In this document: piece by piece, positions 19,829 through 56,962 of the stretch | Position numbering within the stretch: position 1 is the stretch's first letter | Layout of the letters: every line of letters starts with the position of its first letter | IMG/VR virus record: IMGVR_UViG_3300027917_000020 | Coordinates: 1 to 64,000 of that record | Length of the DNA: 64,000 nt | Strand: one strand, 5' to 3' | Source: a virus | Notes under the pieces: model-generated | What the model was told of the DNA's origin: nothing | Databases searched by the model: none | Seen by the model: only the letters and a program-made list of their open reading frames with translations | Position numbers and translations under genes: made by a program

Positions 19829-20178
19829 TGAAATTTAGGGACTATTTAGATAGCGATGTAAAGGAGTTTACGGAATTAAAAATAGGTTTAGTTGATAAAA
19901 AGACCAAAACCGAGTCTGAAGTAGTTCAGAAAATACAGACGAATTTCGATTTAGGTACGGATTTAATTAAGTTAATAAAAGATTTAAATGAAAAATTAGG
20001 CAACACATATCACGGCAAATTTAAGTTTGATTATGTTTTACAGGATAACAGCAGTATAGATAAATTGAAAATAAATAAAAACAGAAAGGAAGGTTTAAAG
20101 AAACAATGGTTGCGGAGCTGTGGAATGTTAGCTCGAAAACAAAACGAAGTGGAACAGCTTCAAGGAGATAAGGATTAA
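19828..20178 (+). CDS. small fibre-operon protein (116 aa)
   Basis: Overlaps both neighbours (TAATG at each end), so it is translationally coupled to the fibre genes. Highly charged and helical, begins MKFRDYLDSDVKEF. The start looks like the capsid-targeting peptides on the minus strand but lacks the L-x-E cleavage Glu. Could be a fibre assembly chaperone; no family recognised. Confidence 0.5.
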   Translation: MKFRDYLDSDVKEFTELKIGLVDKKTKTESEVVQKIQTNFDLGTDLIKLIKDLNEKLGNTYHGKFKFDYVLQDNSSIDKLKINKNRKEGLKKQWLRSCGMLARKQNEVEQLQGDKD

Positions 20179-21086
20179 TGGATTTTCACGAAATAAATAC
20201 GGTAGGTAAACTTTGGATTGAAAGAGTTAATACATTACCAACATGGACTACCGCAGATGCAGGCAGGCTTGTTTATGTTGTTTCGGAAGATAATTTTTAT
20301 AAAGGCGGAAGTACAGACTGGGAATTGTTTGGTAGGTCGTATGCTTTATGGGCAGGACTTGTGGAAAGAGCGACTTTTGAATACAATACAGCATTAAGCA
20401 TAAACATCAAGGGCGGAAGATACCATCATGCGACTAATACTGGAACTGAAATTATCGCAAAAATTGGGGATATAACTTTTGCATTTGGTAGTGCGGGCAG
20501 TAATTCTAATAGTGATAATTTAACTGCAAGTGATTGGCATTATCTTTATTTGGATAATTCAAGATTAGATGAAGATGTTACTGCCGGTATGTTTATAAAT
20601 TCAACAAGTGAACCACAATGGATAGATTCCAAACTCGGATGGTATGGATTGGCGGGCAATGTAACAACAAATGATAGATGTATTGGAGCTTTTTATACTA
20701 ATTCATCGTCTCAAATTGCAAGATTTTGGCAAGTACAAGATATGTTTATGTGGGACGCTCCTCTAACAATTTTTCAAGGAACATGGCCAACTTCTTGGAC
20801 TGTTAAAAATGTATTTGCTCCGACATTTACAAAATTTATTTATGGTACTATTTATGCCTATTCTACGTCTCCCGGTACAGCAGATTGTTATTGGAGACCT
20901 ATTTATTCAACAGGGGCCGGTTTCCGTGTTTTAAGAGTGGCCAATAATCAACAGTCAAGCATGAATGAAATATCAAGAATGGTAATAACAGATACAATCA
21001 GTGGTCCACAAATAGCCATAAGAGCTACTGCCGCAGCTGCGGTAACTTTGTTTCAAAATGGTTATTATTTACCATATGGAATGTAA
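20178..21086 (+). CDS. receptor-binding/tail fibre protein, tandem copy 1 (302 aa)
   Basis: First of three tandem paralogs. Shared N-terminus MDFHEINTVGKLWIERV, LPTWT, GRLVYV, YKGG, and shared C-terminus QNGYYLPYGM; the middle has a common DRCI and LYLDNS pattern but has diverged strongly. Conserved ends with variable centres suit an attachment peg plus variable receptor-binding surface. Overlaps the previous gene. Confidence 0.65.
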   Translation: MDFHEINTVGKLWIERVNTLPTWTTADAGRLVYVVSEDNFYKGGSTDWELFGRSYALWAGLVERATFEYNTALSINIKGGRYHHATNTGTEIIAKIGDITFAFGSAGSNSNSDNLTASDWHYLYLDNSRLDEDVTAGMFINSTSEPQWIDSKLGWYGLAGNVTTNDRCIGAFYTNSSSQIARFWQVQDMFMWDAPLTIFQGTWPTSWTVKNVFAPTFTKFIYGTIYAYSTSPGTADCYWRPIYSTGAGFRVLRVANNQQSSMNEISRMVITDTISGPQIAIRATAAAAVTLFQNGYYLPYGM

Positions 21087-21097
21087 GGAGATTTTAA

Positions 21098-21985
21098 ATG
21101 GATTTTCATGAAATAAATATGAAAGGCAAAATTTGGGTTGAAAGATTGGCTACGTTACCAACGTGGACTTCAAGCGATAAAGGACGAATGGTTTATATAA
21201 CATCAACCGGAATTTATTATAAAGGGGAGGCTACAGGTTGGGGTGAAATTGGAAGACCATTGGATGCTTATACTGGTTATATTCGCAGGCCTTTGTTTTC
21301 TTATAATACAACAAATTCTATTACCATTTCACCGGGCAGATATCATATCAATGGTTCGACAGAAAGATTTATAACTTGGGATTCGGAATTGACCTATACT
21401 TTTACTTCACTTGGGGCAAGTGAATATCATTATTTATATATTGATGATAGTGATGTCGGTTCGGATAATGTGCTTGCCGCTACCGATTTGTTTAATACAA
21501 CAACTGCGCCTACATGGAGTAATTCGAAATTAGGTTATTATAATAATAATGATAGATGTATTTTGGCTTTAAGAACAAATACTACAAACGGATTAAGGGA
21601 ATTTTATCATTCTAATGATTTAATTCATTGGGATTCAGGATTAAACATATGGAATGGTTATCCCCGTTCCACTGCATGGCAAAATGTAACAACTACTGTA
21701 CCGGCTTTTACGGATTTTGTTCCTATATTGTTTTATTCAGTCTATCAAACGAAACATCATGGGAGTGAAATATACTATCGTCCTTCGATTACAGGAAATG
21801 CAATTATATGTGGAAGAACTTGTTATGATAAATCTGGAGATAATCAATGTAACCAAATTGATGCAAATAATTGTGGAAGAATTAGGATAGATGAAAATAA
21901 ACAATTTGCAGTGGCATCAAATGTAAACGGTCATGCTTTCACCTATATTTATCAAAATGGTTATTATTTACCACAAGGGCTTTAA
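21098..21985 (+). CDS. receptor-binding/tail fibre protein, tandem copy 2 (295 aa)
   Basis: MDFHEINMKGKIWVERL start and QNGYYLPQGL end as in copy 1; NNNDRCILALRTN and YHYLYIDDSD mark the conserved centre. AAGGAG in front of the ATG. The C-terminal third differs from copies 1 and 3, including its Cys-rich CGRTCYDKSG segment. Confidence 0.65.
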   Translation: MDFHEINMKGKIWVERLATLPTWTSSDKGRMVYITSTGIYYKGEATGWGEIGRPLDAYTGYIRRPLFSYNTTNSITISPGRYHINGSTERFITWDSELTYTFTSLGASEYHYLYIDDSDVGSDNVLAATDLFNTTTAPTWSNSKLGYYNNNDRCILALRTNTTNGLREFYHSNDLIHWDSGLNIWNGYPRSTAWQNVTTTVPAFTDFVPILFYSVYQTKHHGSEIYYRPSITGNAIICGRTCYDKSGDNQCNQIDANNCGRIRIDENKQFAVASNVNGHAFTYIYQNGYYLPQGL

Positions 21986-22000
21986 GGAGATTAGATTTAA

Positions 22001-22885
22001 ATGGATTTTCATGGATTAAATACAAAAGGAAAAATTTGGATAGAAAGATTGTCGACTTTACCAACGTGGACGGCAAATGATATTGGTCGGATGGTTTATA
22101 TTACAGGGACTGATAAATATTATAAAGGGGATGCTACGGGCTGGAGCCTTTTTGAAAGAGCTGCTAATTTATTTGCTGGGTTTTTAGTTAGACCTAAATT
22201 TGAATGGAATAATACATCCAGTATTATTATTAATCCCGGACGTTATCATCATAGCGGAACTGCTGAACAATTCTTAAAATGGTCAACTCCAATAACATAT
22301 ACGTTTGCTGGATTAGGAAGTTTTTCGAACTATTGGCAATATTTGTATATTTGGGATGGGGCTTTAACAAGTGATACTCTTTCAAGCTCGACTCTGAGAA
22401 ATAATATAATTCCTCCAACTTGGAATAGCACTAAAAGTGGATGGTATAATAAAGAAGATAGATGTATTTTTGCAGTCTATGTGGATGGCTCATCACAAAT
22501 TGTTAAATTTTTCCATTTAAATGATTATATTCGTTGGGATTACCGATATGAACCTTATCGAGCAAGTACGGTAACAGCATCTTGGCAACCGCTTTGCACA
22601 TTTCGTGCGCCGAGTTTTTGTACTCAGGTGGGAGCAGCTTTTCATGCAGAAAATGTTAGTCAATGGTCTTGGATATGGTATAGACCAGAAGGGGCTACAA
22701 CAAATACTGGTATTCCGATAGCACAGCATTATCATACAAATTCGAGATATCAAAGAAGTACTGATGAAAAAACCAGAGTACAAATAAATTCAAGCACTAA
22801 ACGAATTGATATGAAAGTAACATACGGCACTGGTGGTGGTGTTCGTATTATGCAAACCGGCTGGTGGTTGCCAGATGGAATGTAA
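22001..22885 (+). CDS. receptor-binding/tail fibre protein, tandem copy 3 (294 aa)
   Basis: MDFHGLNTKGKIWIERL start, EDRCIFAVYV centre and QTGWWLPDGM end. It is the last gene of the structural operon: a terminator and a new promoter follow immediately. The three copies could be alternative or co-assembled receptor-binding tips. Confidence 0.65.
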   Translation: MDFHGLNTKGKIWIERLSTLPTWTANDIGRMVYITGTDKYYKGDATGWSLFERAANLFAGFLVRPKFEWNNTSSIIINPGRYHHSGTAEQFLKWSTPITYTFAGLGSFSNYWQYLYIWDGALTSDTLSSSTLRNNIIPPTWNSTKSGWYNKEDRCIFAVYVDGSSQIVKFFHLNDYIRWDYRYEPYRASTVTASWQPLCTFRAPSFCTQVGAAFHAENVSQWSWIWYRPEGATTNTGIPIAQHYHTNSRYQRSTDEKTRVQINSSTKRIDMKVTYGTGGGVRIMQTGWWLPDGM

Positions 22886-22944: not shown

Positions 22945-22973
22945 TTTACAGTTTTCCCAATATATGGTATAAT
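22945..22973 (+). promoter_or_regulatory. class A promoter
   Basis: TTTACA (22945-22950), 17-base spacer ending TATGG, TATAAT (22968-22973). It starts the unit with the S74-like gene; the leader is about 27 bases with AAAGGGGG. Confidence 0.85.
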
Positions 22974-23006: not shown

Positions 23007-23315
23007 ATGGCCGATAATATGAAAAAATGGGGATTGGATTTTATCCGTAAATTAAAGCCGTGTTTTTGGAAGTATAAATTACCACGATTAAACGATGGCC
23101 GATATCATTTTGGCATGGTAGCGCAGGATATTATAGATATTGTATCTAAGGATGATTTTGGGTTTGTTACGGTAAAAGAGTTTGAAGATGGACGACCTAT
23201 GTATCGGGTTAATTATTTTGAATTTATGGGCCCGCTTATTGCCGCTATACAGCAGTTGGACCAGAAGGTTAAAAAGTTAGAAAAAGAGTTAAAGACTGTA
23301 AAGGGAAATAAATAA
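23007..23315 (+). CDS. stand-alone S74-like intramolecular chaperone domain (102 aa)
   Basis: The whole protein corresponds to an endosialidase-type C-terminal chaperone: WGLDFIRKLKPCFWKY, HFGMVAQDI, VNYFEFMGPLIAAIQQLDQK and a C-terminal coiled coil. In fibres this domain is normally fused and cuts itself off using a Ser-Asp...Lys motif. Here the domain is alone, starts ADNMKKW, and the usual N-terminal Ser/Asp pair is not visible. It may act in trans on the repeat fibres encoded at 59283-63966, which lack an S74 tail (inference). Confidence 0.75.
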   Translation: MADNMKKWGLDFIRKLKPCFWKYKLPRLNDGRYHFGMVAQDIIDIVSKDDFGFVTVKEFEDGRPMYRVNYFEFMGPLIAAIQQLDQKVKKLEKELKTVKGNK

Positions 23316-23323: not shown

Positions 23324-23809
23324 GTGAACCCGGATAAATTAAAGAAATTAGAACAGGCACATATTGGAAAAGATTGCCAAATTAATGGCACTATTGATAT
23401 TAATAGACCGCATACGGTTTTTATAGGGGAAAAAGTTGTATTAGGAGGCGAAGGTAGAATTATTACCCATTGCCCTATTCGTTCATTTTTGCCCGATGAT
23501 AGAATTATTATAGGGGATTGTGCGTGGATAGGATATCGGACAGTTGTATTGCCCGGAGTTAAAATAGGCCGATTTGCTATTATAGGCGCACAATCGGTTG
23601 TGAGTAAGGACGTTCCTGCCTATTATATCGCCGCCGGAAATCCATTACGAGTCTTGCGAAAACGGGATAAGGATGAAATTCGCCGGTGGTATATCCAAAA
23701 ATGGAAGTTGGGCAGAGAACCTAATAAGGACATTAAATATGACCCTAATATGTTAACTGAAGAAGAGGAGAAATGGATATTTAAGGATTACGAGATTAAT
23801 GGGAGTTAA
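23324..23809 (+). CDS. left-handed beta-helix (hexapeptide) acyltransferase
   Basis: 161 residues, GTG start. Hexapeptide repeats: IGKDCQINGTIDI, VFIGEKVVLGG, IIIGDCAWIGYRTVVLPGV, IGRFAIIGAQSVVSKDV, then the standard closing AYYIAAGNPLRVLRKR. This is the CysE/LacA/WbbJ-like O-acetyltransferase pattern; the catalytic His is probably the one in ITHCPI. A likely role is acetylation of a surface sugar or of phage glycans. No good ribosome-binding site; a late-type promoter 5 bases before the start suggests leaderless translation. Confidence 0.8.
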   Translation: MNPDKLKKLEQAHIGKDCQINGTIDINRPHTVFIGEKVVLGGEGRIITHCPIRSFLPDDRIIIGDCAWIGYRTVVLPGVKIGRFAIIGAQSVVSKDVPAYYIAAGNPLRVLRKRDKDEIRRWYIQKWKLGREPNKDIKYDPNMLTEEEEKWIFKDYEINGS

Positions 23810-24230
23810 AGCAAGTAAGAATTATGTAAAAAACGAAGACCTAATGCCGCATATATTTTATTACAGGGAGACGGGCAAGGTCACCGAAGAATTCGGAGAA
23901 ATGCTATTAAAGATAGCGGAGAATTATGCCAATAAGGGCAATTTCCACGGCTATACATGGAAACAGGATATGGTAATGGAAGCCGTCTATACTTGTATCC
24001 GCTATATGCATAACTTCGACCCTATCAAAAAAGCAAAACCAAATCCATTCGCATATTTCACATCTATTATCAGGAATGCATTTCTAAATTATATCGCAAA
24101 ACAAAAAAAGCATAGTAAAATCAAAGACCATTGTTATAATTACCACCACTTAATGAATGATGAGGAGTGCGAGGATGATTATTTTAGGACGAAAGGAATA
24201 GACTATACGGTATTAAAAGAGGAGAAGTGA
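23799..24230 (+). CDS. 55: late transcription sigma factor gp55-like
   Basis: 143 residues. HIFYYRETGKVTEEFGEMLL, then IAENYANKGNFHGYTWKQDM and KPNPFAYFTSIIRNAFLNYI are the gp55 sigma region 2-like pattern of T4-type phages. The protein replaces the host sigma on RNA polymerase and recognises TATAAATA, sites of which are seen in this window. T4 gp55 is 185 residues; this one is shorter, and its C-terminus (TVLKEEK) lacks an obvious clamp-binding peptide. Overlaps the acyltransferase by 11 bases. Confidence 0.88.
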   Translation: MGVKASKNYVKNEDLMPHIFYYRETGKVTEEFGEMLLKIAENYANKGNFHGYTWKQDMVMEAVYTCIRYMHNFDPIKKAKPNPFAYFTSIIRNAFLNYIAKQKKHSKIKDHCYNYHHLMNDEECEDDYFRTKGIDYTVLKEEK

Positions 24231-24231
24231 A

Positions 24232-24786
24232 ATGTTTAAAAAGCTGAAAGAAGCCGTTATTTTAAAATGGTGGTTTCTTGTATGCTTGATTAGTTTCGGA
24301 ATAGTGGTTAGTGCAGTGGCCGGGATTTTTCAAATGGCATATGAGGCTGATGCTACTAAAATTAGTTTTGGTATTTTCGGTTTATTTGTTATATTAACTG
24401 GCTGGACAGGGATGCTTACATATAAAGCGTCCATTAAGGAGATAGGTAAAAAGGAGTATGAAAAAATAATAAGACAGAATGGGTTAAGTCATTTCTTTTC
24501 CGATATATTGTTTTATATGGGAATGACGGGTACGGTACTCGGTTTTATTATGATGCTGAGACAGAGTTTTGAAAATATAGTAGCAGGCAACACGGCAAGT
24601 ATGCAGGCCGCTTTAACCAGTATGGGTTCCGGTATGAGTACAGCATTGTTTACGACAGCGGCCGGTCTTATTTGTAGCATATTATTAAAATTACAGGTTT
24701 ATAATCTGGATTATTTTTTGGAGGAGTTGGAACCCAAAGATTGTGGGGGAAATTGTTCATGTAGGGATTCTGGCGGACAAGTTTAA
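24232..24786 (+). CDS. MotA/TolQ/ExbB-family channel subunit
   Basis: 184 residues, four predicted membrane helices (about 13-33, 42-62, 87-108, 133-155). The last two carry the family signature: MGMTGTVLGFIMML and GMSTALFTTAAGLICSILLK, matching the G-x-x-G-T-V-x-G and A-L-x-T-T-A-x-G-L of ExbB/TolQ. Such proteins form the pentameric ring of proton-driven motors. The gene follows the late sigma gene by one base and overlaps the ExbD-like gene. A phage copy is unusual. Confidence 0.8.
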   Translation: MFKKLKEAVILKWWFLVCLISFGIVVSAVAGIFQMAYEADATKISFGIFGLFVILTGWTGMLTYKASIKEIGKKEYEKIIRQNGLSHFFSDILFYMGMTGTVLGFIMMLRQSFENIVAGNTASMQAALTSMGSGMSTALFTTAAGLICSILLKLQVYNLDYFLEELEPKDCGGNCSCRDSGGQV

Positions 24787-25421
24787 TGATACGGAGAAAT
24801 AGACAAACCACAACTCCGTTTTTGGATTTACTTTTTAACTGCTTAGTCGGTTTCGTGTTTCTATTTGTGGTGGCGTTTTTAATGATAGCACCTGAGAAAA
24901 AAGAAGCCGGAATAAAAACTAAAGCGGAATTCGTTATAACATTAACATGGGATAAAGCAAATCCCGATGATGTTGATTTATGGCTAAAGAATCCTCTTGG
25001 TCAGATTATGTTTTTTAGGCGTAAAGAGGTTAATTTTATGCATTTAGATAGGGATGATGTGGGACATGCAAATGATAATGTCTATGCAAATGGAATACTT
25101 ATTGAATATCCATATAATCAAGAAATAGGAACAATTAGAGGAGCGATACCCGGTGAATGGATAGTAAACGTCCATATGTATGCTAAACGTTCTTCAACTC
25201 CTGCAAATGTTACAGTACGGATAGATAAAATTAATCCAAAAGTAACAACTATATTTTTAGAAACTTTTAAATTAACTGAATTTGAAGAAGTTACCGTCCT
25301 TCGTTTTAGAATGACTACCGATGGAAGTATACTTTTGACAAGCAAAGAACCATATGAAATGGTAAAAGAAGAATTACAACATACAGGCGGAAATTTATCA
25401 ACGGGATATATTAGGAGATAA
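24786..25421 (+). CDS. ExbD/TolR-like subunit with periplasmic domain
   Basis: 211 residues. A basic N-terminus (MIRRNRQTTT) is followed by TPFLDLLFNCLVGFVFLFVV, one membrane helix with the Asp (residue 14) in the position of the proton-carrying Asp of ExbD/TolR/MotB. The periplasmic part has ITLTWDKANPDDVDLWLKNP and GEWIVNVHMYA, resembling the beta-sandwich of DUF2135-type domains rather than the ExbD or OmpA fold. It overlaps the ExbB-like gene (TAATG), indicating one complex. Confidence 0.75.
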   Translation: MIRRNRQTTTPFLDLLFNCLVGFVFLFVVAFLMIAPEKKEAGIKTKAEFVITLTWDKANPDDVDLWLKNPLGQIMFFRRKEVNFMHLDRDDVGHANDNVYANGILIEYPYNQEIGTIRGAIPGEWIVNVHMYAKRSSTPANVTVRIDKINPKVTTIFLETFKLTEFEEVTVLRFRMTTDGSILLTSKEPYEMVKEELQHTGGNLSTGYIRR

Positions 25422-25423
25422 TT

Positions 25424-25987
25424 ATGTGGGAAGGAACAACAGGACTGGCCGCTACTTTTGTGGTTTTGGCCAGTGTATTGTTATGGATTTTTATTAAACC
25501 CGACACTAAAGGATGGATTAAGGCAATCGTTATTCCGTTTGTAATTTGGTTTGGTTTTGCAGCGTGGTATACACCTCAAAATCTAATGGGATGGGCTAAA
25601 ATCACTACATTAGAAGAAGTGCCGGGGAATTCGATAGTTCAGAATATTATGATAATTGAACCAAATAATAATGATAAAGGGGCTATGTATTTTTGGTTAA
25701 TACCTTTAGAGAAAGAGCCGGATTCTTTGTTTTGGAATCCAAAATATGCGTTTGTATATAATTCAAAGCCCGGAGAACCTCGAGTTTATAAAACACCATA
25801 TGATAAGGAACTTCATAAAAAATTATTAGAAGCCCAAAAGGAAAAGGGTAAAAACAGGGGAAGCGTATTAATTTTTAAAGGTCTTTTGAAGGGCGAAAAG
25901 GGTAAAATGAAAGGAGAAGAAGGTCCGATGAATCGGGAGAAACAACCATTTAAAATATTAAAACCGCAGGATATTTTTATAAAATAG
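25424..25987 (+). CDS. third subunit of the membrane module (187 aa), unknown
   Basis: Two N-terminal membrane helices (about 7-24 and 32-49), a globular part (NSIVQNIMIIEPNN, AMYFWLIPLEKE), and a very basic tail (EKGKNRGS, KGEKGKMKGEEG). Two bases separate it from the ExbD-like gene, so it likely belongs to the same complex. No family recognised. The gene ends immediately before a class A promoter. Confidence 0.6.
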   Translation: MWEGTTGLAATFVVLASVLLWIFIKPDTKGWIKAIVIPFVIWFGFAAWYTPQNLMGWAKITTLEEVPGNSIVQNIMIIEPNNNDKGAMYFWLIPLEKEPDSLFWNPKYAFVYNSKPGEPRVYKTPYDKELHKKLLEAQKEKGKNRGSVLIFKGLLKGEKGKMKGEEGPMNREKQPFKILKPQDIFIK

Positions 25988-26016
25988 TTTACAATTGCGG
26001 TTATTTGTGGTATAAT
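25988..26016 (+). promoter_or_regulatory. class A promoter
   Basis: TTTACA (25988-25993), 17-base spacer ending TTGTGG, TATAAT (26011-26016); starts the recombination operon. Confidence 0.85.
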
Positions 26017-48777: not shown

Positions 48778-49152
48778 CTATATACGCTTGCCGGTGGTTA
48801 CATTGTATACACCTATTACCCTTGCTCTATCGGTGTATGCTAACGGGTCTATAAAGTACTCTATACCTTCTTCCCCGTTCCATTCCCACTCATCGGCATC
48901 GCCTTTGACTATGGCTATGTAAGTTGGGTTGTATGGATAGGTGCTCTCTATTAGGTGGGATAATCTTTTACCGTAATAGTATGAGCGTTTGAACCTACCC
49001 AGCCTAAAACCCAATGAGTTATACGCTATACGGGGAACCACATCTAAACAGGAAGCAAGCCAGATAGCGAAAGGCCGCACAACCATGCCGTTTAGCGAGG
49101 CAAATGATGTTCCGGTTATTTTAGTCTCTGTTAGGTAGGTTTTTAATCTCAT
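48778..49152 (-). CDS. CTS-tagged protein (124 aa), putative injected effector
   Basis: N-terminus MRLKTYLTE|TKITG fits the capsid-targeting pattern with an L-x-E cleavage site. The body (FAIWLASCLDVVPRIAYNSL, then IAIVKGDADEWEWNGEEGIE) has no recognised family. Overlaps the upstream CTS gene by 4 bases; both are read from the late promoter at 49640-49647. Confidence 0.6.
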   Translation of the reverse strand: MRLKTYLTETKITGTSFASLNGMVVRPFAIWLASCLDVVPRIAYNSLGFRLGRFKRSYYYGKRLSHLIESTYPYNPTYIAIVKGDADEWEWNGEEGIEYFIDPLAYTDRARVIGVYNVTTGKRI

Positions 49153-49634
49153 TGCGTCCTTATCCCCACCGACTTAAAGGCTTTATCAAACCATTTGCCG
49201 GTCTTTTGAATATCTTTAAAAACAACCCCTGCTGAAGAGAGGTATGGGTCTATATACCATTGTTTTTTAGTAAACGGTTTTTTACCGTATGCTATAAAGG
49301 AGTGACCGTTTACAGTGCCATCTCCGATGTCCTCGACTAACTCTATGAACGGGCGGACTTTTATTTTCTGCCAGCTCTTATCGGTTTTAATATAGTCCAT
49401 CATTTTACTCCATTTGCTCTCATCCCATATATAAAAGGTGAGCATGGAATAAAAGCTAAACCGACCGAGTTGAAGGTCTTTGCCCTGTTGTTTTACCTTA
49501 TACACGGCGGCATGGCATACCTTATAATTGTTTATATCACATCCGGTGCCTTCTGTGAAGTCATCTATAATATCGGCTATTGCTTTGGCGTTATCACCTT
49601 CGGCTGATTCGTTTAAATAGTTTAATAGTCGCAT
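49149..49634 (-). CDS. CTS-tagged protein (161 aa), putative injected effector
   Basis: MRLLNYLNE|SAEGD start. The remainder includes FTEGTGCDINNYKVCHAAVY, a His-containing KVCHAAV segment and GHSFIAYGKKPF; the Cys...His...D spacing could be a papain-like or NlpC-type arrangement, but this is speculative. It starts exactly 5 bases after a TATAAATA on the minus strand. Confidence 0.6.
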   Translation of the reverse strand: MRLLNYLNESAEGDNAKAIADIIDDFTEGTGCDINNYKVCHAAVYKVKQQGKDLQLGRFSFYSMLTFYIWDESKWSKMMDYIKTDKSWQKIKVRPFIELVEDIGDGTVNGHSFIAYGKKPFTKKQWYIDPYLSSAGVVFKDIQKTGKWFDKAFKSVGIRTQ

Positions 49635-49641
49635 ATAAATA
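49634..49641 (+). promoter_or_regulatory. late promoter TATAAATA (plus)
   Basis: Plus-strand half of a palindromic TATAAATATTTATA; ends 8 bases before the small frame at 49650. Confidence 0.45.
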
Positions 49642-49647
49642 TTTATA
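49640..49647 (-). promoter_or_regulatory. late promoter TATAAATA (minus), leaderless
   Basis: Exact consensus on the minus strand, 5 bases before the ATG at 49634. It drives the first CTS pair late in infection. Confidence 0.65.
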
Positions 49648-49649
49648 TA

Positions 49650-49817
49650 ATGAAACGGTTTTTATTAACTGCGTTAGGTATATGGCTTCTGCCCGGAGGG
49701 ACTCTGTGGCTTGGGCTGTGGGTTTTGTGGTTAGTGGTTGGTAAGGGGGAGAGGGGCTTTAGTCCGGTTAAAAAAATCTGTCGGAAAAAGCCTAAAAATT
49801 CTCTGAAAAAAATCTAA
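49650..49817 (+). CDS. possible small membrane protein (55 aa)
   Basis: Reads MKRFLLTALGIWLLPGGTLW, hydrophobic to residue 30, then a very basic tail (PVKKICRKKPKNSLKKI). It lies in the otherwise empty space between two minus-strand units, under the plus-strand late promoter, without a Shine-Dalgarno. It would be a small cationic membrane protein. Confidence 0.4.
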   Translation: MKRFLLTALGIWLLPGGTLWLGLWVLWLVVGKGERGFSPVKKICRKKPKNSLKKI

Positions 49818-50923
49818 ATGGCCATCTTCTTTCTATTACATGACTTGCACAACATCTGGCAATTTTCAATAACCGTTTTTCCACCTTTAGACCAAGGTTG
49901 TATATGGTCGGCTTCCATTTCTTTTAGGTCAAATTGTTCTTTGCAATGAGCACATAAACCATTCTGTCTTTCATATGCAATCATTTTTTCTTTATCATTA
50001 AAAGTCCTGATATTTAATTCCCGTTCATCCCTGTTAATTACATAAGACCAAATGCCTTTAATATTAGTTACATCCCTATCATTAATAAGTTCGTATATTT
50101 TACTTTCTAACAATGTAGGGTCAAAATTTTCATCTTTATATTCGTTGTATAATAAACCGAATTGTACGCCTTTCATTTGTGCTCGATATTTAAAAAGAGT
50201 CTCCGTCCATTCCATTACTTTAATAAAATATTCCCATAGCTCATTGGCATTCTCATCATGCTGGTGATGTGCCATATAATTTTCTATATTATTATTGCTT
50301 ATCCATTTCAGGATGGTCTCTAAATATGCTTGTCGATTAATCTTTCCGAGCATATATTTTCCATAACAATCTTGCGCTGGACAAGACTGTTTACTAAAAT
50401 ATTGTTTAGCCGACTCTAACCAAGGACCGGGGTATACGGCATTTCTTAATTCCTGTTTTGAATGCGTTTTTCCTGCTATATTAATCCGTTTAAACCAGTT
50501 TAGTTTTTCTTCTTTAGTCCCCTCGCAGATACGGACATCTAATGGATAATTGAGTATATTTTTTTGTACATCATCGGGTAGGTTATCAAAATATCTTGGA
50601 GTGCCATTATAGATAATGGTATAGCTTCTGTTTACAATATATGCACAGATGCTTAATGTCCGCTGCTGTCCGTCCAGTACTTCATTATATATATGTCTAT
50701 AATCCTCTTTATGCACATGCCAGTATATAATACCTAATGGAAAATTATTAATAATAGAATCTATTACCGCTTTCTGTTCCGGTAAATTATATATGAATTC
50801 TCGTTGATAAGAAGGTCTTATATTAAGTTTTCCATTTAAAGCCCAAACACCTCTATCCTCTGATAACTCTTCATAACCTTCTATAATTTTTTTAATAGGA
50901 ATTTCTTCTTTACTAATTCTCAT
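49814..50923 (-). CDS. DUF262 plus HNH endonuclease
   Basis: 369 residues. The N-terminal DUF262 (ParB-like, GmrSD-type) domain has RPSYQREFIYNLPEQKAVID, NFPLGIIYWH and LDGQQRTLSI (about residues 37-108). The C-terminal HNH domain has LCAHCKEQFD, MEADHIQPWSKGG and CQMLCKSCNRKK (about 325-366), catalytic DH and zinc-binding Cys pairs intact. Follows the EcoRI-family methylase gene with an 11-base overlap; together they look like a restriction-modification or defence cassette. Confidence 0.82.
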   Translation of the reverse strand: MRISKEEIPIKKIIEGYEELSEDRGVWALNGKLNIRPSYQREFIYNLPEQKAVIDSIINNFPLGIIYWHVHKEDYRHIYNEVLDGQQRTLSICAYIVNRSYTIIYNGTPRYFDNLPDDVQKNILNYPLDVRICEGTKEEKLNWFKRINIAGKTHSKQELRNAVYPGPWLESAKQYFSKQSCPAQDCYGKYMLGKINRQAYLETILKWISNNNIENYMAHHQHDENANELWEYFIKVMEWTETLFKYRAQMKGVQFGLLYNEYKDENFDPTLLESKIYELINDRDVTNIKGIWSYVINRDERELNIRTFNDKEKMIAYERQNGLCAHCKEQFDLKEMEADHIQPWSKGGKTVIENCQMLCKSCNRKKMAI

Positions 50924-51854
50924 TAGTTTCTTCCTTTCTCTTCTGTATCACAAGGCGGACATAAATTCTTTTACCTTTCAAGTCTGGAGGTCCGAAATCG
51001 TATTCAGTTTTTTTAGAGTGAAGTTTCCCTAAAATTTTAAACTGTACAGGTGTATAACATCCGCCCGTCATAAACGAAACAGGAACACCCATTGGGCCAT
51101 CATAATCCTTTGGAATATCTCTTGTTTTATCAACATTTATAGCATCATAATTATCATATTTTGGATAAGCATCTTTGTTTTTATAATAACTTTTATATAA
51201 TAATAGTTTTCTATTTATTCTATCATGTCGTAAATTTGTAAACCAACAAGCAACTTGATGTGATAATGTACCATCTGGAGTTTTAAACCATAATTTCCGA
51301 TTTTTTGGAGTAACCCCTAACCACATTTTTTCGTTTTTTATTAACGGGAATATTTCATTATAAGTTATTGCATTTTGATTGCCAATAATCAAAAACTTCT
51401 TTTTATATTCCATCAACTGAGCTATATACTCTCGTAATAAACTAAATGGTGGATTGGTAACAACAATATCTGCTTCTTTGAGCAATTCGATACTGGCTTG
51501 ACTTCTAAAATCACCGTTCCCTGCCATTTCATAAGAAGCACTTGGTAAAGTACTGTTATCAAATGAGTTTTTTTCTATTACATATGCATAATTTTTTTTG
51601 TTTTTATCCTGCAAATATTTCACTGTCGGTATATAATGCGTAGCTATTAATTTTTTTAAGCCAAGATATTCAAAACTTAATGCAAAATACTTCCAGAAGT
51701 TGCTTTTTTCCGGGTCATCACAATTGCAGAATACAATTTTATCTTTGAAATGATGTTCGTAATGTCTTAACTCATTGCTTATATCATCAAGTTGAGTATA
51801 ATATTCATCCTCTTTTTTCTTTTTTGCTGCATTTAAACTTTTAATTGTACCCAT
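50913..51854 (-). CDS. EcoRI-family adenine-specific DNA methyltransferase
   Basis: 313 residues. KEDEYYTQLDDISNELRHYE, then VFCNCDDPEKSNFWKYFALS, ADIVVTNPPFSLLREYIAQL (motif IV NPPF, about residue 137) and MTGGCYTPVQFKILG match the EcoRI methylase family. First gene of the cassette, with its own class A promoter placed so close that its mRNA should be leaderless. It would methylate adenines in the sites cut by the partner, or protect phage DNA. Confidence 0.8.
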   Translation of the reverse strand: MGTIKSLNAAKKKKEDEYYTQLDDISNELRHYEHHFKDKIVFCNCDDPEKSNFWKYFALSFEYLGLKKLIATHYIPTVKYLQDKNKKNYAYVIEKNSFDNSTLPSASYEMAGNGDFRSQASIELLKEADIVVTNPPFSLLREYIAQLMEYKKKFLIIGNQNAITYNEIFPLIKNEKMWLGVTPKNRKLWFKTPDGTLSHQVACWFTNLRHDRINRKLLLYKSYYKNKDAYPKYDNYDAINVDKTRDIPKDYDGPMGVPVSFMTGGCYTPVQFKILGKLHSKKTEYDFGPPDLKGKRIYVRLVIQKRKEETNEN

Positions 51855-51862
51855 AACTTTCT

Positions 51863-51891
51863 ATTATAACACAATCTCTATATATTGTAAA
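51863..51891 (-). promoter_or_regulatory. class A promoter (minus), leaderless
   Basis: Minus strand TTTACA (51891-51886), 17-base spacer, TATAAT (51868-51863), 8 bases before the methylase ATG. Confidence 0.8.
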
Positions 51892-51931
51892 CAGATTTAT
51901 TTACAAGGACAACACGGATACAGATAAACCA

Positions 51932-52051
51932 TTAGGCCGACAAAATCCAGAAAAACCACAAAAAAACGACCACCATTAAAATACCCACTAACCATCCGCC
52001 ATCTCTAAGCATTTCTTTTATAAAATCCTTTATAAAATTTATTAAATTCAT
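51932..52051 (-). CDS. small membrane protein (39 aa)
   Basis: Reads MNLINFIKDFIKEMLRDGGW then LVGILMVVVFLWFFWILSA: amphipathic N-terminal helix and one membrane helix. The ATG overlaps the stop of the preceding minus-strand gene. Holin-like size but a single helix; function unknown. Confidence 0.5.
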   Translation of the reverse strand: MNLINFIKDFIKEMLRDGGWLVGILMVVVFLWFFWILSA

Positions 52052-52344
52052 ATCTCAAACAGCTCTTCTGGTAATAAAGGTTTTTCTACAATAGATAGGT
52101 CTTCGTAATAGTATACATTTTTTTTACCGTTGTCCCATTTAACTCTGATGCACATACCTTTATATGACCGAACGAAGGAAAAATCCGGTTTTATTTTTTC
52201 TATCGTACCCATACAGGCATATCGGCTACCTAACAGTGGATTGGTCTCGGCCACTCCGTGACGGTTACTCGTCAGGAGAACCCGTAGACCGACCTCTGCG
52301 GTCTTATAAGTAAGCTTCTTTAAGTCTTGAAATTTTGGCAACAT
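52048..52344 (-). CDS. small protein with C-terminal LPEELFEI tag (98 aa)
   Basis: VGLRVLLTSNRHG, SRYACMGTIEKI and VKWDNGKKNVYYYEDLSIV form an SH3-like beta barrel pattern often seen in phage hypotheticals, ending PLLPEELFEI. A class A promoter lies only 6 bases before the ATG, so the mRNA should be leaderless. Confidence 0.65.
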   Translation of the reverse strand: MLPKFQDLKKLTYKTAEVGLRVLLTSNRHGVAETNPLLGSRYACMGTIEKIKPDFSFVRSYKGMCIRVKWDNGKKNVYYYEDLSIVEKPLLPEELFEI

Positions 52345-52350
52345 GGGGCT

Positions 52351-52380
52351 ATTATAGCACAGGTCAGTTAGGATTGTAAA
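52351..52380 (-). promoter_or_regulatory. class A promoter (minus), leaderless
   Basis: Minus strand TTTACA (52380-52375), 18-base spacer, TATAAT (52356-52351), 6 bases before the ATG at 52344. Confidence 0.75.
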
Positions 52381-52385
52381 CAGGA

Positions 52386-52991
52386 TTATGGCGTATAATT
52401 TAATAACTCAAACTCTGCTTGGCAGATATCCTGTATAATGCGCTTGTGCTCTTCGGTTAGTATGTCATCTGTACTGGGTCGGGGTCTGGATTTTTTGGCA
52501 TGGGGAAAATCCTTTGCTATGGATATGCCGATTGCCTGTTCAATTTCTGTAAGGCAGTCAGGGAGGTCTTCGTATTTAAAAACCTTGTTCACTAAAAGTT
52601 TACCATTTGTATTTGTATATAAATCGATATTTTTATATTCGCCTTTTTTAATAATCGTATCAATAAAATTTTTATCAGGCGGCCCTGTTAAATTAGTTCT
52701 CCAGTATGCTTGGGATATAGCTTTATCATAAGGATGCCGGTCAATTGCAAATTTAAAAAACTGTCGGAAAATTTTAGGTTTCATTTTATTCCTAACACTT
52801 GTAATGGGCATATGGTTATACCATCCTTCATTTTTGGGAAAGGTTCTATATACATTACGCAAATGTTCTTCTATTATAGGCGTGATTATATCCGGCTTTT
52901 TACAATGACGACTGAGGGCAATCTCCATACTGGTGCTTGCGGTCTTGCGGGTTTTAATAAAAACAAATTGATGGGTATAACTGAGTATCAT
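52386..52991 (-). CDS. sulfotransferase-family protein (201 aa)
   Basis: FVFIKTRKTASTSMEIALSR is the 5'-PAPS loop (K-x-x-S-T-S) and FKFAIDRHPYDKAISQAYW the 3'-phosphate motif (R-x-P-Y/F-D), followed by KVFKYEDL. Length fits compact sulfotransferase-2-like enzymes. It ends the large late minus-strand operon; overlaps the CTS protease gene by 4 bases. No CTS on this protein. Confidence 0.78.
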   Translation of the reverse strand: MILSYTHQFVFIKTRKTASTSMEIALSRHCKKPDIITPIIEEHLRNVYRTFPKNEGWYNHMPITSVRNKMKPKIFRQFFKFAIDRHPYDKAISQAYWRTNLTGPPDKNFIDTIIKKGEYKNIDLYTNTNGKLLVNKVFKYEDLPDCLTEIEQAIGISIAKDFPHAKKSRPRPSTDDILTEEHKRIIQDICQAEFELLNYTP

Positions 52992-53413
52992 GTTCTAAAT
53001 TCAGGTGAGTTAACTTTTTTAAATATCTCCTTAACTATTTTAATATATTTGTTTTTGTTACCAACCCACTTGGCCATGCGGCCGTACTGTTCCGGGTAGC
53101 GTTTTTTGAGGTGGTTGGGGTCGTATAGGTAATACATAAAGGCTTCGGCAAATCCTTCTTCGGAGTTCTCCCGGTCTAATATATAAAAATTATCTTCGGG
53201 TTCCCATCCCATTATATCTATTAATTTTACATACTGCTCTCTAAACCAGTGACCTAACTCATGAGCCAGAGTCCACTCCTGTGCGCCTTTAGTTAGATTA
53301 AAAAACTTCTGGCCAATTTGCATAATACCCTTTGTATCCATACGGGCTTCATGTGGTATATGTTTATTGTATATAGGTTTAATTTGTTCTGTTAGGTAGG
53401 TTTTTAATCTCAT
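52988..53413 (-). CDS. CTS-tagged zincin metallopeptidase (141 aa)
   Basis: MRLKTYLTE|QIKPI tag followed by a small metallopeptidase: EWTLAHELGHWFREQ (HExxH at about residues 70-74) and the downstream glutamate helix NSEEGFAEAFMYY, the gluzincin arrangement (as in anthrax lethal factor/ImmA-like enzymes). If packaged and injected it could cleave a host protein at the start of infection. Confidence 0.72.
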   Translation of the reverse strand: MRLKTYLTEQIKPIYNKHIPHEARMDTKGIMQIGQKFFNLTKGAQEWTLAHELGHWFREQYVKLIDIMGWEPEDNFYILDRENSEEGFAEAFMYYLYDPNHLKKRYPEQYGRMAKWVGNKNKYIKIVKEIFKKVNSPEFRT

Positions 53414-53805
53414 TATATGTATCCAAATTTCTTTGCGTTTTTAATTGATGGGACGTATAAACCAACGGGTATCTTTTCCGCACCGAGGTCTCTAAGAACG
53501 GCAAACCGATGACGGCCATTTGAAAATGATACTTTCCCATCATCGTCCACATATACAATCGGGGTTTCAATCTTACCTGTATAATTGGCCAAAAAACTAA
53601 TGAACCGTTTGTAACGGGAACCTATGGATGCTCCGCTACCTCCCGGTCCTACATAAAAATCTCTATCCTTTGACCAAGCCTTATCAAAGGGGTTTGCTTT
53701 AACCCATTTAATAACATAGTTTTTTTCTCCGGGCGGGAGAGTCATGTTTTTTAGTATATTATCTAAATCTAATTCGGCTTCTGTGAGATAGCGTTTTAGT
53801 CTCAT
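53413..53805 (-). CDS. CTS-tagged ParB/Srx-like protein (130 aa)
   Basis: MRLKRYLTE|AELDL tag, then a ParB-like core: TPIVYVDDDGKVSFSNGRHR, FAVLRDLGAEKIPVGLY. G-R-H-R-x-x-x-x is the ParB/sulfiredoxin nucleotide-binding motif (CTP or ATP in known members). A relative without the tag is encoded at 42474. Overlaps the next CTS gene start. Confidence 0.68.
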   Translation of the reverse strand: MRLKRYLTEAELDLDNILKNMTLPPGEKNYVIKWVKANPFDKAWSKDRDFYVGPGGSGASIGSRYKRFISFLANYTGKIETPIVYVDDDGKVSFSNGRHRFAVLRDLGAEKIPVGLYVPSIKNAKKFGYI

Positions 53806-54167
53806 TTTAGTTTTTTAAATTCTTTAGGTGATAGTATTTGATTTAATGGTGCTTTTGGTCCGGCACTTAAAGATAAAAACTGATTCCACTCATCTTTAGT
53901 TTTAAACGATACAGTTAAAGGCAGTTTATCAATTGGTTTTATTTTATTAGGGTTTACATAATCGGGCTGGTCATCATAATCGGGGCTTGTAATATACTTC
54001 CACGTTTCTGTATCATATGTCTGAATATTCATTCCGGGTTTGCTTCCGGCTAACCATATTCTTTTTTCAGCGGCAACATATGATAGGAATGGCCCGTATA
54101 TATTTTTTTTATAAAATATCCAATATTGGTTTGTAGTCGATTCTTTTATATATCTTTTTAGTCTCAT
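53802..54167 (-). CDS. CTS-tagged protein (121 aa), unknown
   Basis: MRLKRYIKE|STTNQ tag (I-K-E). The body has an aromatic beta region (YWIFYKKNIYGPFLSYVAAE) and a C-terminal basic part (ILSPKEFKKLK). No family. Tightly overlapped with neighbours on both sides. Confidence 0.6.
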   Translation of the reverse strand: MRLKRYIKESTTNQYWIFYKKNIYGPFLSYVAAEKRIWLAGSKPGMNIQTYDTETWKYITSPDYDDQPDYVNPNKIKPIDKLPLTVSFKTKDEWNQFLSLSAGPKAPLNQILSPKEFKKLK

Positions 54168-54415
54168 TTAGAAAGCCTTTTCATAATAGTATCTATATAC
54201 ATTAATAATTCTCTTTTTGTTTGGGCGTGAGTATTCTCTACCTCATAATCATCATCACCATATTTGCCCAATGTTATTTCGGCACCCCAATATTTATTAG
54301 GGCCTTCAGTTTGCCAAACGCTTACATAAAATCTACCGGATTCAGCAGAGTAATTTCCCGGGCCATTTCGTTTTAATCTTAATTTACCTTCGTTTAAATA
54401 ATTTAATAGTCTCAT
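54164..54415 (-). CDS. CTS-tagged protein (83 aa), unknown
   Basis: MRLLNYLNE|GKLRL tag, then a small beta domain (GNYSAESGRFYVSVWQTEGP) ending with a helix (LLMYIDTIMKRLSK). The plan resembles small dsDNA-mimic or single-strand-binding folds, but no family can be given. Confidence 0.58.
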   Translation of the reverse strand: MRLLNYLNEGKLRLKRNGPGNYSAESGRFYVSVWQTEGPNKYWGAEITLGKYGDDDYEVENTHAQTKRELLMYIDTIMKRLSK

Positions 54416-54437
54416 TTATTTTCTCTAAAAATCATAT

Positions 54438-55079
54438 TCATCTTACTATCTTTTGTAACCTATCGACTTCCTGTTTTGTTTGCCGATACCACGAGCGCAG
54501 TTTGCTCCCTACTGTCCGAATGTCCTTATTAATATCATCCGTTAAATCCGGTATAAAAAATGATAGCTGAGAGAGAACATCATTCATAGCCCATAAACAT
54601 TCCTTCATTGTGACATCTTTGCTATCTCTTGTTTTTTCATATTTATTCGCAAGAGTTATTACATTGGCGAAGTTCTTTTGAAAATTGCGGACTCGTTTTA
54701 GTTGTTTAGGCAATGGCTGAATAATTTTTTGCAGGGTTTTTACAGGATCGCCCAGTTTTTTTAAAAAATCCGCATTACTAAAATCCATACCCTCCATAAT
54801 CCATCTATATTCTTTCTCGTCCCACCTCATAAACTCTACGGCAATGCTCTTAGGGTCTTTCATTTCTTTTTGTAATGATTTTACATACTTTAATACTTGT
54901 TGCTTGGTCATCGGCTTGCGTTTTTTTGACTTAGAAAACTGGTCGTACCCCGCCAGACCGTGCTGAGTTTTTTCTGTGGTTACTATATACTTGCCGGGTT
55001 TATCCTCTCGTGCCGTAACCCTCACTCCGCTAATATATATATCTCCATACTGTTCAGTTAGGTATCTTTTTAGTCTCAT
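54438..55079 (-). CDS. CTS-tagged helical protein (213 aa)
   Basis: MRLKRYLTE|QYGDI tag, then a short beta hairpin (SGVRVTAREDKPGKYIVTTE) and a long helical, basic part (LQKIIQPLPKQLKRVRNFQK; DIRTVGSKLRSWYRQTKQEV). Fits a DNA-condensing internal protein, as known for T4 IPs. Function inferred only. Confidence 0.6.
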   Translation of the reverse strand: MRLKRYLTEQYGDIYISGVRVTAREDKPGKYIVTTEKTQHGLAGYDQFSKSKKRKPMTKQQVLKYVKSLQKEMKDPKSIAVEFMRWDEKEYRWIMEGMDFSNADFLKKLGDPVKTLQKIIQPLPKQLKRVRNFQKNFANVITLANKYEKTRDSKDVTMKECLWAMNDVLSQLSFFIPDLTDDINKDIRTVGSKLRSWYRQTKQEVDRLQKIVR

Positions 55080-55094
55080 TTATTTTCTCTTACC

Positions 55095-55970
55095 TCATTT
55101 AAAAAACTCCGATGCGTTTTCAAAGTCACCGTTTTTATCTAATTTTAATTCTACGTTGACGTTTATATCCGGTTCACTTATTCCCAAGCCGGGGAGATAT
55201 AAACGTCCGCCGGTTTTTTTATCAGCCAGAAAGAATCCCTTACCTTGCCGTTTAATTTCGTTAGCAGTAGTCTCGTCTGTCCAACTCCATGAGAGACCGC
55301 TATTAAGCGACCTCTTTGGCCCTTGGGATGCTATAATAGGATGTTTTATTTTGTAACATTCAACTCTCCATACTCTGGGTGAATGGGTTACATGGTATGT
55401 TAATTGTTTTGCGAATAATAAATATTTACTTTTTACAAATTTATCTGACCATACGGTTGCGCCTATCTTTCCATCGGTTGAATATATTATCATTACTAAA
55501 CCATCTTTGGCTTGTAGCTTCGGGGACTTTCTAAAATCAGATTCTTTAAACGGCACGTTTAGGCCGGACTCCAGTCTAAGGTTTTTTATATATCCAACAA
55601 ACTCTGATGTATCATGGTGCCTGCCTAATTTTTTCTTAGTATATAATAATATATGAACCATCTCATGAAGCATTACAGCTTTTATATCATCTAATTGTAA
55701 ATCGAAGGTTGTGGACATTGTTATTTTGAGGGAATCCATTTTTATTTCAGCGGCGGCATGAACGGGTATTTCTTCTAAGTATTTTTGCATTAATGAACGG
55801 TCTGCTTTACCTCCAGTATATCTTACCGTAGCCAGACCTATTGCACCTTTTAATCTCCCACTCCAAGCCAATTTAATATTGGGCAATGCTCCGCCAAAAT
55901 AATTCCGATTTAATTCGGCATAAAGAGGTTTTAATTTTATATCACCTTCTGCCCCTTCCCGTATATACAT
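55095..55970 (-). CDS. SprT-like zincin, possibly CTS-type (291 aa)
   Basis: LYAELNRNYFGGALPNIKLA, then AVMLHEMVHILLYTKKKLGR-HH with HExxH at about residue 101-105: the SprT/Spartan fold. A C-terminal part of about 150 residues is of unknown fold. The N-terminus MYIRE|GAEG holds only a minimal I-x-E|G site rather than the full MRLKRYLTE tag. In hosts SprT-type proteases remove DNA-protein crosslinks. Confidence 0.7.
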   Translation of the reverse strand: MYIREGAEGDIKLKPLYAELNRNYFGGALPNIKLAWSGRLKGAIGLATVRYTGGKADRSLMQKYLEEIPVHAAAEIKMDSLKITMSTTFDLQLDDIKAVMLHEMVHILLYTKKKLGRHHDTSEFVGYIKNLRLESGLNVPFKESDFRKSPKLQAKDGLVMIIYSTDGKIGATVWSDKFVKSKYLLFAKQLTYHVTHSPRVWRVECYKIKHPIIASQGPKRSLNSGLSWSWTDETTANEIKRQGKGFFLADKKTGGRLYLPGLGISEPDINVNVELKLDKNGDFENASEFFK

Positions 55971-55984
55971 TTATACCTCTTCTA

Positions 55985-56212
55985 TTATTTAACCTTTTTT
56001 CCATTTTTGAATTTTGCTATTATGTCACTTTCTTTATAATTACCTGTACCAGCTTCAACAGTATGCACATCACCGCCGAATTTTCCAGTTCCAGAGTCAA
56101 CAAATACAACTAAAGTTTCTTTTACTCTTTTACTTGTCGCTTTAGCAAATTCCAATTCCTGTTCGATTTGTTCTTTGGTGCTTTTTTCATTTATATATTC
56201 ACTAAATTTCAT
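55985..56212 (-). CDS. CTS-like small protein (75 aa)
   Basis: MKFSEYINE|KSTKEQ resembles the tag with substitutions. Helical middle (EQIEQELEFAKATSKRVKE), then a short beta/Gly region (VDSGTGKFGGDVHTVEAGTG). Unknown function. Confidence 0.55.
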   Translation of the reverse strand: MKFSEYINEKSTKEQIEQELEFAKATSKRVKETLVVFVDSGTGKFGGDVHTVEAGTGNYKESDIIAKFKNGKKVK

Positions 56213-56222
56213 TTTCTATCCC

Positions 56223-56423
56223 CTATACCTCTTCTAAATTATGAACGTGACCGGCAGCGGGTTGAACAAGCCACTGGAATATATTATGAACGTGGTCGTC
56301 TGCGCCTTTAGTTCCAATGGTTTTTCCGTCCCCGTCTTCATTGACCATAGCGGTATGTATATGGCCGGTCTCGTCTGATTTTGTTGTTAGTCCTATTTTG
56401 CTTTCGATTAGATATTGTCTCAT
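56223..56423 (-). CDS. CTS-like His-rich protein (66 aa)
   Basis: MRQYLIE|SKIGL carries a short form of the tag. The rest has H-x-H clusters: GHIHTAMV, DDHVHNIF and AGHVHNLEEV, a likely divalent-metal site, reminiscent of small phage structural proteins with repeated HxH. Overlaps the next gene by 4 bases. Confidence 0.6.
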   Translation of the reverse strand: MRQYLIESKIGLTTKSDETGHIHTAMVNEDGDGKTIGTKGADDHVHNIFQWLVQPAAGHVHNLEEV

Positions 56424-56962
56424 AACTTTTTAAATTTTGCGGCTGATATCGGTTTGCCGTCCACTCGTATTCTGGCAGGGAACTGATTAAACAGAGTCCG
56501 CCTTGCTGATACATTAATAATCATTTGCTGTTCTATATAAACATCATGGCCATCTTTTTTGCCGGATATTCTGAAACTGGTGCCGGTTAGATTATGAATT
56601 TCCACGTTATCAAGTAAACCGACCTTCTCATCAATTTTATCCGCCCATGCTTTTAGGGTATCTTCGGCATAGACTTCTGCGCCTTTATCTATTTTGTTTT
56701 TATCAAGTTGTCTGGCCTCACCACTCCACATTATATTTGATTTAGTCGGTGCCAGATATGGTTTAATCATTTTATCAAAAACATTTACCCATTTGCGGTT
56801 ATTATAAACGTGTTTCAATTCGGGCCCTATATCGGCAACCATATCTCTAAATACTCTATCGATATTATCTTTAAAGCGTTTAATTAGTTCCGGTTTATAA
56901 GGCTTGAGCATATTAATAATATCTCGCTCGCTCATTTCTGTTAGGTATCGTTTTAATCGCAT
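56420..56962 (-). CDS. CTS-tagged protein (180 aa), unknown
   Basis: MRLKRYLTE|MSERD tag, then helical domain (IINMLKPYKPELIKRFKDNI, VNVFDKMIKPYLAPT) and a C-terminal mixed part (EIHNLTGTSFRISGKKDGHD; LFNQFPARIRV). First gene of the main CTS operon, preceded by a late-type AATAAATA with a leader of only a few bases. Confidence 0.62.
   Translation of the reverse strand: MRLKRYLTEMSERDIINMLKPYKPELIKRFKDNIDRVFRDMVADIGPELKHVYNNRKWVNVFDKMIKPYLAPTKSNIMWSGEARQLDKNKIDKGAEVYAEDTLKAWADKIDEKVGLLDNVEIHNLTGTSFRISGKKDGHDVYIEQQMIINVSARRTLFNQFPARIRVDGKPISAAKFKKL

Follow-up and report, generated by a model that had tools for sequence, protein, structure and literature searches.

A widespread, unnamed gene trio for a probable ion motor with a new output module in phages and Proteobacteria

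We found that three adjacent genes of a T4-like phage, here called P1, P2 and P3, make up a real and widespread set that has no name and that we read, with good support, as an ion motor with a new output module. Known 5:2 motors that run on ions drive flagella, gliding, transport by Ton and Tol, and defence by Zorya. The initial annotation of this locus had proposed an ExbB/ExbD-like module and considered it not to be a described phage function; our literature search likewise found no account of such a module in a phage. Because P2 and P3 lie outside every curated family, the trio system is invisible to current annotation. We tentatively propose, with somewhat less than even confidence, that P1, P2 and P3 form one PMF-driven inner-membrane machine, in which P3 would pass the output to the periplasm or envelope, most likely to peptidoglycan.

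The window, meaning the whole stretch of DNA that was analysed, spans positions 1-64000 of a virus record that is 161607 bases long. The make-up of this record is T4-like (baseplate and tail-fibre genes, a late sigma factor, and SbcC/SbcD- and UvsX-like genes), with several of the gene names behind this assignment read from the sequence and not from a scan. The features of the locus are:

22945..22973, plus strand: early-type promoter, TTTACA-N14-TGGTATAAT, preceding the block of genes whose last members are the trio
23799..24230, plus strand: late sigma factor, T4 gp55-like (phrog_234, E=2.8e-32; Pfam Sigma70_r2), immediately 5' of P1
24232..24786, plus strand: P1, MotA/TolQ/ExbB-type channel subunit, 184 aa (PF01618, E=2.9e-9; family alignment; PDB profile matches)
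24532..24534, plus strand: codon of P1 Thr101, invariant in 49/49, in a GTV-G motif aligned with TolQ Thr145
24655..24657, plus strand: codon of P1 Thr142, invariant in 49/49, in a TxxGL motif aligned with TolQ Thr178
24786..25421, plus strand: P2, ExbD/TolR-like membrane anchor with predicted periplasmic beta-sandwich, 211 aa (AlphaFold2; family alignment)
24825..24827, plus strand: codon of P2 Asp14, the putative ion-carrying membrane aspartate, invariant in 52/52
24924..25343, plus strand: P2 periplasmic beta-sandwich, as modelled, with invariant D62, D64, D88, D90, D91, D97, E113 and H130
25424..25987, plus strand: P3, third subunit, two helices and a predicted periplasmic domain, 187 aa (structure model; topology; fusions)
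25988..26016, plus strand: the early-type promoter again, in a second exact copy immediately 3' of P3, at the start of the SbcD/SbcC block

The trio has the late sigma gene on one side and SbcD on the other. It had been described as three overlapping genes; the tight packing stands, but the overlap is confined to P1 and P2 and amounts to one base. The late sigma context, also part of the original description, is found here and in the Pootjesviridae, but not in most other phages with the trio. The early-type motif TTTACA-N14-TGnTATAAT has 16 matches in the window when up to two mismatches are allowed, compared with 2.7 expected, and given this enrichment the trio most likely shares one transcription unit with the sigma gene. 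The 16 sites include 22945, 25988, 36606, 42439, 45056 and 51863. The T4-type late promoter TATAAATA is not enriched in the window (15 found, 17.6 expected), so late control of the trio cannot be argued from this motif. Upstream, at 20178-22885, there are three tandem paralogues starting with MDFHEIN or MDFHGLN, which are probably tail-fibre tips, followed by a gene with an S74 chaperone domain at 23007.

P1 has about four hydrophobic helices and matches the MotA_ExbB family (PF01618, E=2.9e-9; score 37.2 bits, cut-off 22.9). When a family profile of 49 P1 relatives was compared with all PDB chains, it matched MotA, TolQ, PomA and ExbB only. The proposed proton path of the Tol motor consists of TolR D23 and TolQ T145/T178 (PMC12583513), and the two TolQ threonines align with Thr101 and Thr142 of P1. 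By sequence, P1 is a member of the MotA/TolQ/ExbB superfamily that keeps both putative proton-path threonines, and the Pfam match and the confinement of the profile matches to this superfamily bear out its earlier identification as a subunit of this type.

In P2, the counterpart of TolR D23 is Asp14, which lies within the segment FLDLLFN. It is invariant in the family alignment of phage relatives (52/52) and is also kept when the window is aligned with five Rhizobium phages; the corresponding helix in TolR reads L21LDVLLVLLL30 (PMC12583513). The initial annotation had named loss of this residue among homologs as one of two findings that would speak against it, and with Asp14 conserved throughout, that finding did not materialise. 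The AlphaFold2 model of P2 (pLDDT 86.8) contains a helix at 10-33 and strands at 47-186 that make up an all-beta domain, and the N-terminus is positively charged in 49/52 relatives. P2 is predicted to have a single N-in helix carrying the membrane Asp, which is what an ExbD/TolR subunit requires. Because the P1 profile matches are restricted to 5:2 motors, and because the equivalents of TolR D23 and TolQ T145/T178 are invariant in P2 and P1, the reading of the trio as an ion motor is well supported at the sequence level.

The periplasmic part of P2 is of a different kind. P2 belongs to no Pfam family, its profile gave no ExbD/TolR match, a PDB search with its fold gave no match at E<=0.001, and neither Pfam nor PADLOC detected an OmpA-like peptidoglycan-binding domain. 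The model confidently predicts a beta-sandwich of neither the ExbD/TolR nor the OmpA type, in keeping with the unusual periplasmic domain that had been noted for this subunit alongside its key Asp. The invariant acidic residues of this domain (D62, D64, D88, D90, D91, D97, E113) are accompanied by R89, R118 and H130, and the DVD/DID and RDD motifs are present again in the cellular and rhizobiophage copies; the acidic set looks like a candidate site for a metal or a partner. A beta-sandwich in common with P2 is found in the phrog_1735 family (phiCbK gp145, Serratia phage ChuuTotoro; E=4.9e-6), but those proteins have about 670-710 aa and lack both the membrane Asp helix and the partner genes. 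The viral Foldseek match of P2 was a Cellulophaga phi4:1 protein similar in size to the phrog_1735 proteins (E=1.4e-5).

P3 was modelled with a pLDDT of 76 as helices at 2-24 and 30-54 followed by a small soluble domain, which has no known family in Pfam and no PDB match for its fold; the early suspicion of a third subunit of no known type thus held. A net positive charge is found in the inter-helix loop of 53/53 relatives and at the N-terminus of only 2. With this distribution of charge, P3 should be N-out/C-out, both of its ends facing the periplasm.

We compared the trio with known systems of this kind. TolQ-TolR-TolA is alike in that P1 matches the TolQ channel helices with the Thr145/Thr178 equivalents present, the P2 helix resembles the TolR D23 helix, and three inner-membrane genes occur together; it is unlike in that P2 has a beta-sandwich as its periplasmic domain and P3 has two helices, whereas TolA has a single anchor and a long periplasmic helix. 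The neighbours at the locus, a sigma factor before P1 and SbcD and SbcC after P3, include no TolB or Pal partner. ExbB-ExbD-TonB shares the motor core and the membrane Asp, but P2 is without the ExbD periplasmic fold and the third subunit is not TonB-like: TonB and TolA have one anchor and a long periplasm-spanning segment, while P3 has two helices and a short, compact domain. The MotA-MotB/PomA-PomB stators resemble the trio in the number of P1 helices, and a MotA is the best PDB profile match of P1, but their OmpA-like peptidoglycan-binding domain is missing in P2.

In the motor explanation, we infer the assembly, stoichiometry, ion flow, envelope target and purpose in infection. P1, expected to be a pentamer, and P2, expected to be a dimer, would form a motor powered by ions, as MotAB, TolQR and ExbBD do. 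The ions would move by way of P1 Thr101/Thr142 to P2 Asp14, turning or displacing P2, and the P2 beta-sandwich together with the two-helix, N-out/C-out P3 would bring this movement into the periplasm. In the infected cell, the motor would then exert its output on the envelope, with peptidoglycan as the most likely target.

Looking for the same trio in other phages, as had been suggested at the outset, was productive. A scan of IMG/VR gave at least 167 contigs with P2 relatives, and the best 80 of the 167 were analysed and fell into 57 distinct loci at 90% identity. P3 is found close to P2 in 57/57 of these loci and P1 in 53/57, some contigs ending before P1. Gene order and tight packing of the trio are kept at the 57 phage loci, in rhizobiophages and in cells, and the conservation of the trio over so many distinct phage loci excludes chance. 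Among named phages, full-length P2 is encoded by Rhizobium and Sinorhizobium phages only; the carriers include Pootjesviridae, RHph_N3_19, RHph_I1_18 and the classic phage 16-3, in which the trio is annotated as hypothetical throughout. In the Pootjesviridae it adjoins the late sigma gene and SbcD/C. A tblastn search of named phages with P1 gave no match, whereas the P2 query did find the rhizobiophages. In PHROGs, P1 and P3 have no counterpart family, and that of P2 is distant. Altogether, carriers of the trio include T4-like, temperate and giant phages. By eye, genes for ClpS-like and ClpP-like proteins and for a BacA/SbmA-like transporter recur near the phage trio (L058, L020, L049 and relatives).

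The trio is not phage-specific: it is chromosomal in Proteobacteria, mostly in PQQ/quinoprotein alcohol-dehydrogenase clusters. We scanned one genome per species for 84,980 species and obtained 340 relatives, of which 80 were kept. These are P1-P2-P3 sets on bacterial contigs, from Burkholderiales, Gammaproteobacteria, Alphaproteobacteria and a small number of other groups. One or more PQQ-cluster genes are present at 56 of the 80 kept loci (PqqB-like at 26, PQQ-dependent alcohol dehydrogenase at 33, with gene names by NCBIfam for representatives), which is a lower bound because many cellular flanks are short. PqqB scored above its cut-off in 23/32 of such trio genomes. When 250 Burkholderiales genomes were drawn evenly, the five strong trio carriers, one of which was the sampling centre, all had PQQ-ADH no more than about 25 kb from the trio on one contig (5/5), compared with 61/250 genomes overall. 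A lipoprotein gene accompanies the trio at 60 of the 80 kept loci (of 340 relatives); NCBIfam models gave no match to this lipoprotein. Of 61 copies of it, at cellular loci such as L104, L108, L141 and L154, at least 46 have a recognisable lipobox. A weak trio-like match was also seen in G057.

The phage copy could, then, have the same role as the cellular one, probably energising periplasmic uptake or cofactor supply (PQQ, Ca or lanthanide) so that the energy metabolism of the host is maintained. The cellular gene clusters and the PQQ-ADH association in Burkholderiales favour such a helper of host physiology, as does the acidic site of P2, if it is metal-binding. We nevertheless consider it unlikely. 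PQQ-ADH is absent from 21 trio-bearing phage records, and neither a PQQ-cluster gene nor the lipoprotein gene was found near 80 phage copies (the best 80 of 167). In a phylogenetic tree of 146 P2 sequences, which has long branches and many open forks, only two phage/cell changes are needed, and the copies of phages and cells appear as deep and nearly separate groups; four copies from marine alphaproteobacteria, closely related to one another, are placed among the phages. This deep split and the long phage branches are unlike what would be expected of a recently borrowed metabolic gene, and the lysozyme fusions described below also argue against a helper of host physiology. A recent auxiliary metabolic gene for PQQ is ruled out, since PQQ genes are missing from the trio phages covered here and the tree is deeply split.

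Alternatively, the motor might change the envelope or the membrane potential such that a second phage is unable to inject. Consistent with superinfection exclusion, the trio is located in the membrane, an early-type promoter probably drives it in the window's phage, and the related ion motor ZorAB functions in phage defence (PMC12204202). This seems improbable to us, as no defence partner genes were recognised, PADLOC returned no match for P2 or P3 and only a weak one for P1 through the shared MotA domain, and the cellular copies are located in metabolic clusters.

Fusions of P3 bear on what the motor may act upon. In 11 contigs from several metagenomes (among the matches listed), P3 is extended by a phage lysozyme domain (PF00959, at E=4.7e-47 in contig L044), and the E-8-D-5-T catalytic spacing is intact in all 11. 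They fall into a single clade of the P2 tree, to which the fusion is confined. The initial annotation had considered a block to superinfection, lysis or uptake as possible roles; the fusion is the one feature that hints directly at what the trio does, and it favours an output at the cell wall. With a lysozyme that looks active joined to the periplasmic end of P3 in some phages, peptidoglycan is the most likely target.

The same fusions, with their catalytic residues intact, could also point to a dedicated lysis machine, in which the motor would open or time lysis and P3 would be the endolysin carrier, with a logic like that of the membrane-held SAR endolysin. The trio block is moreover downstream of tail-fibre genes, as is the T4 holin gene t. 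We doubt that this is its function, because the fusion is limited to one clade, lysozymes are not adjacent to the trio in most phages, and the candidate wall genes of the window's phage are elsewhere in the record. No PF00959 gene was found in that phage, and the domain is absent in 15/20 other trio records, none of the five matches being beside the trio. The candidate wall genes are an SLT/LysM gene at 126836 and a DUF5675 gene at 136982 of the record. The former (126836-127927 of the record, minus strand) encodes an SLT transglycosylase that also has a hydrophobic helix and a LysM-like segment, and is a candidate endolysin. The 16-3/AP-16-3 paper makes no mention of an endolysin or holin.

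That the phage carries an anti-phage system of the Zorya type is highly implausible: the channel region of P1, like that of a cellular P1, resembles ZorA (best E=1.9e-6), but the long ZorA tail is missing from the 184 aa of P1, P2 has no ZorB-like domain or match and P3 no match to ZorC/D/E, so that anatomy (P1 length, P2 model, PADLOC) largely refutes this identity.

For the proposed PMF-driven machine of P1, P2 and P3, a role in the envelope or wall during infection, as in peptidoglycan remodelling, is our reasoned guess. Standing against a wall role are the position of the trio and sigma gene behind an early-type promoter and not in a lysis cassette in the window's phage, the restriction of the lysozyme fusion to one clade, and the cellular copies, which neighbour PQQ genes and not wall genes. 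It is conceivable, if rather unlikely, that the trio is an unnamed PMF-driven envelope machine common to many phages and to PQQ alcohol-oxidising bacteria, with a motor that drives a third subunit in the periplasm, and that the tethered lysozyme of the one clade is powered or controlled by the motor as it cuts the wall during infection. If true, a phage-borne motor with its own output domain would mean that viruses use such motors on the host envelope, and the P3-lysozyme fusion would be a direct test case for energy-coupled wall remodelling. The cellular counterpart poses a separate, genetically tractable puzzle, namely why periplasmic alcohol oxidation would need a dedicated motor.

Apart from the trio, we observed an N-terminal tag like M[RK][LF]KxYLxE at 48778-56962 (minus strand) and across the whole record, in at least 30 of 248 ORFs (0.8 expected from shuffling). 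It resembles the T4 capsid-targeting sequence, which is cleaved by the prohead protease, and by this analogy the phage may pack a large number of internal proteins into its capsid and inject them.
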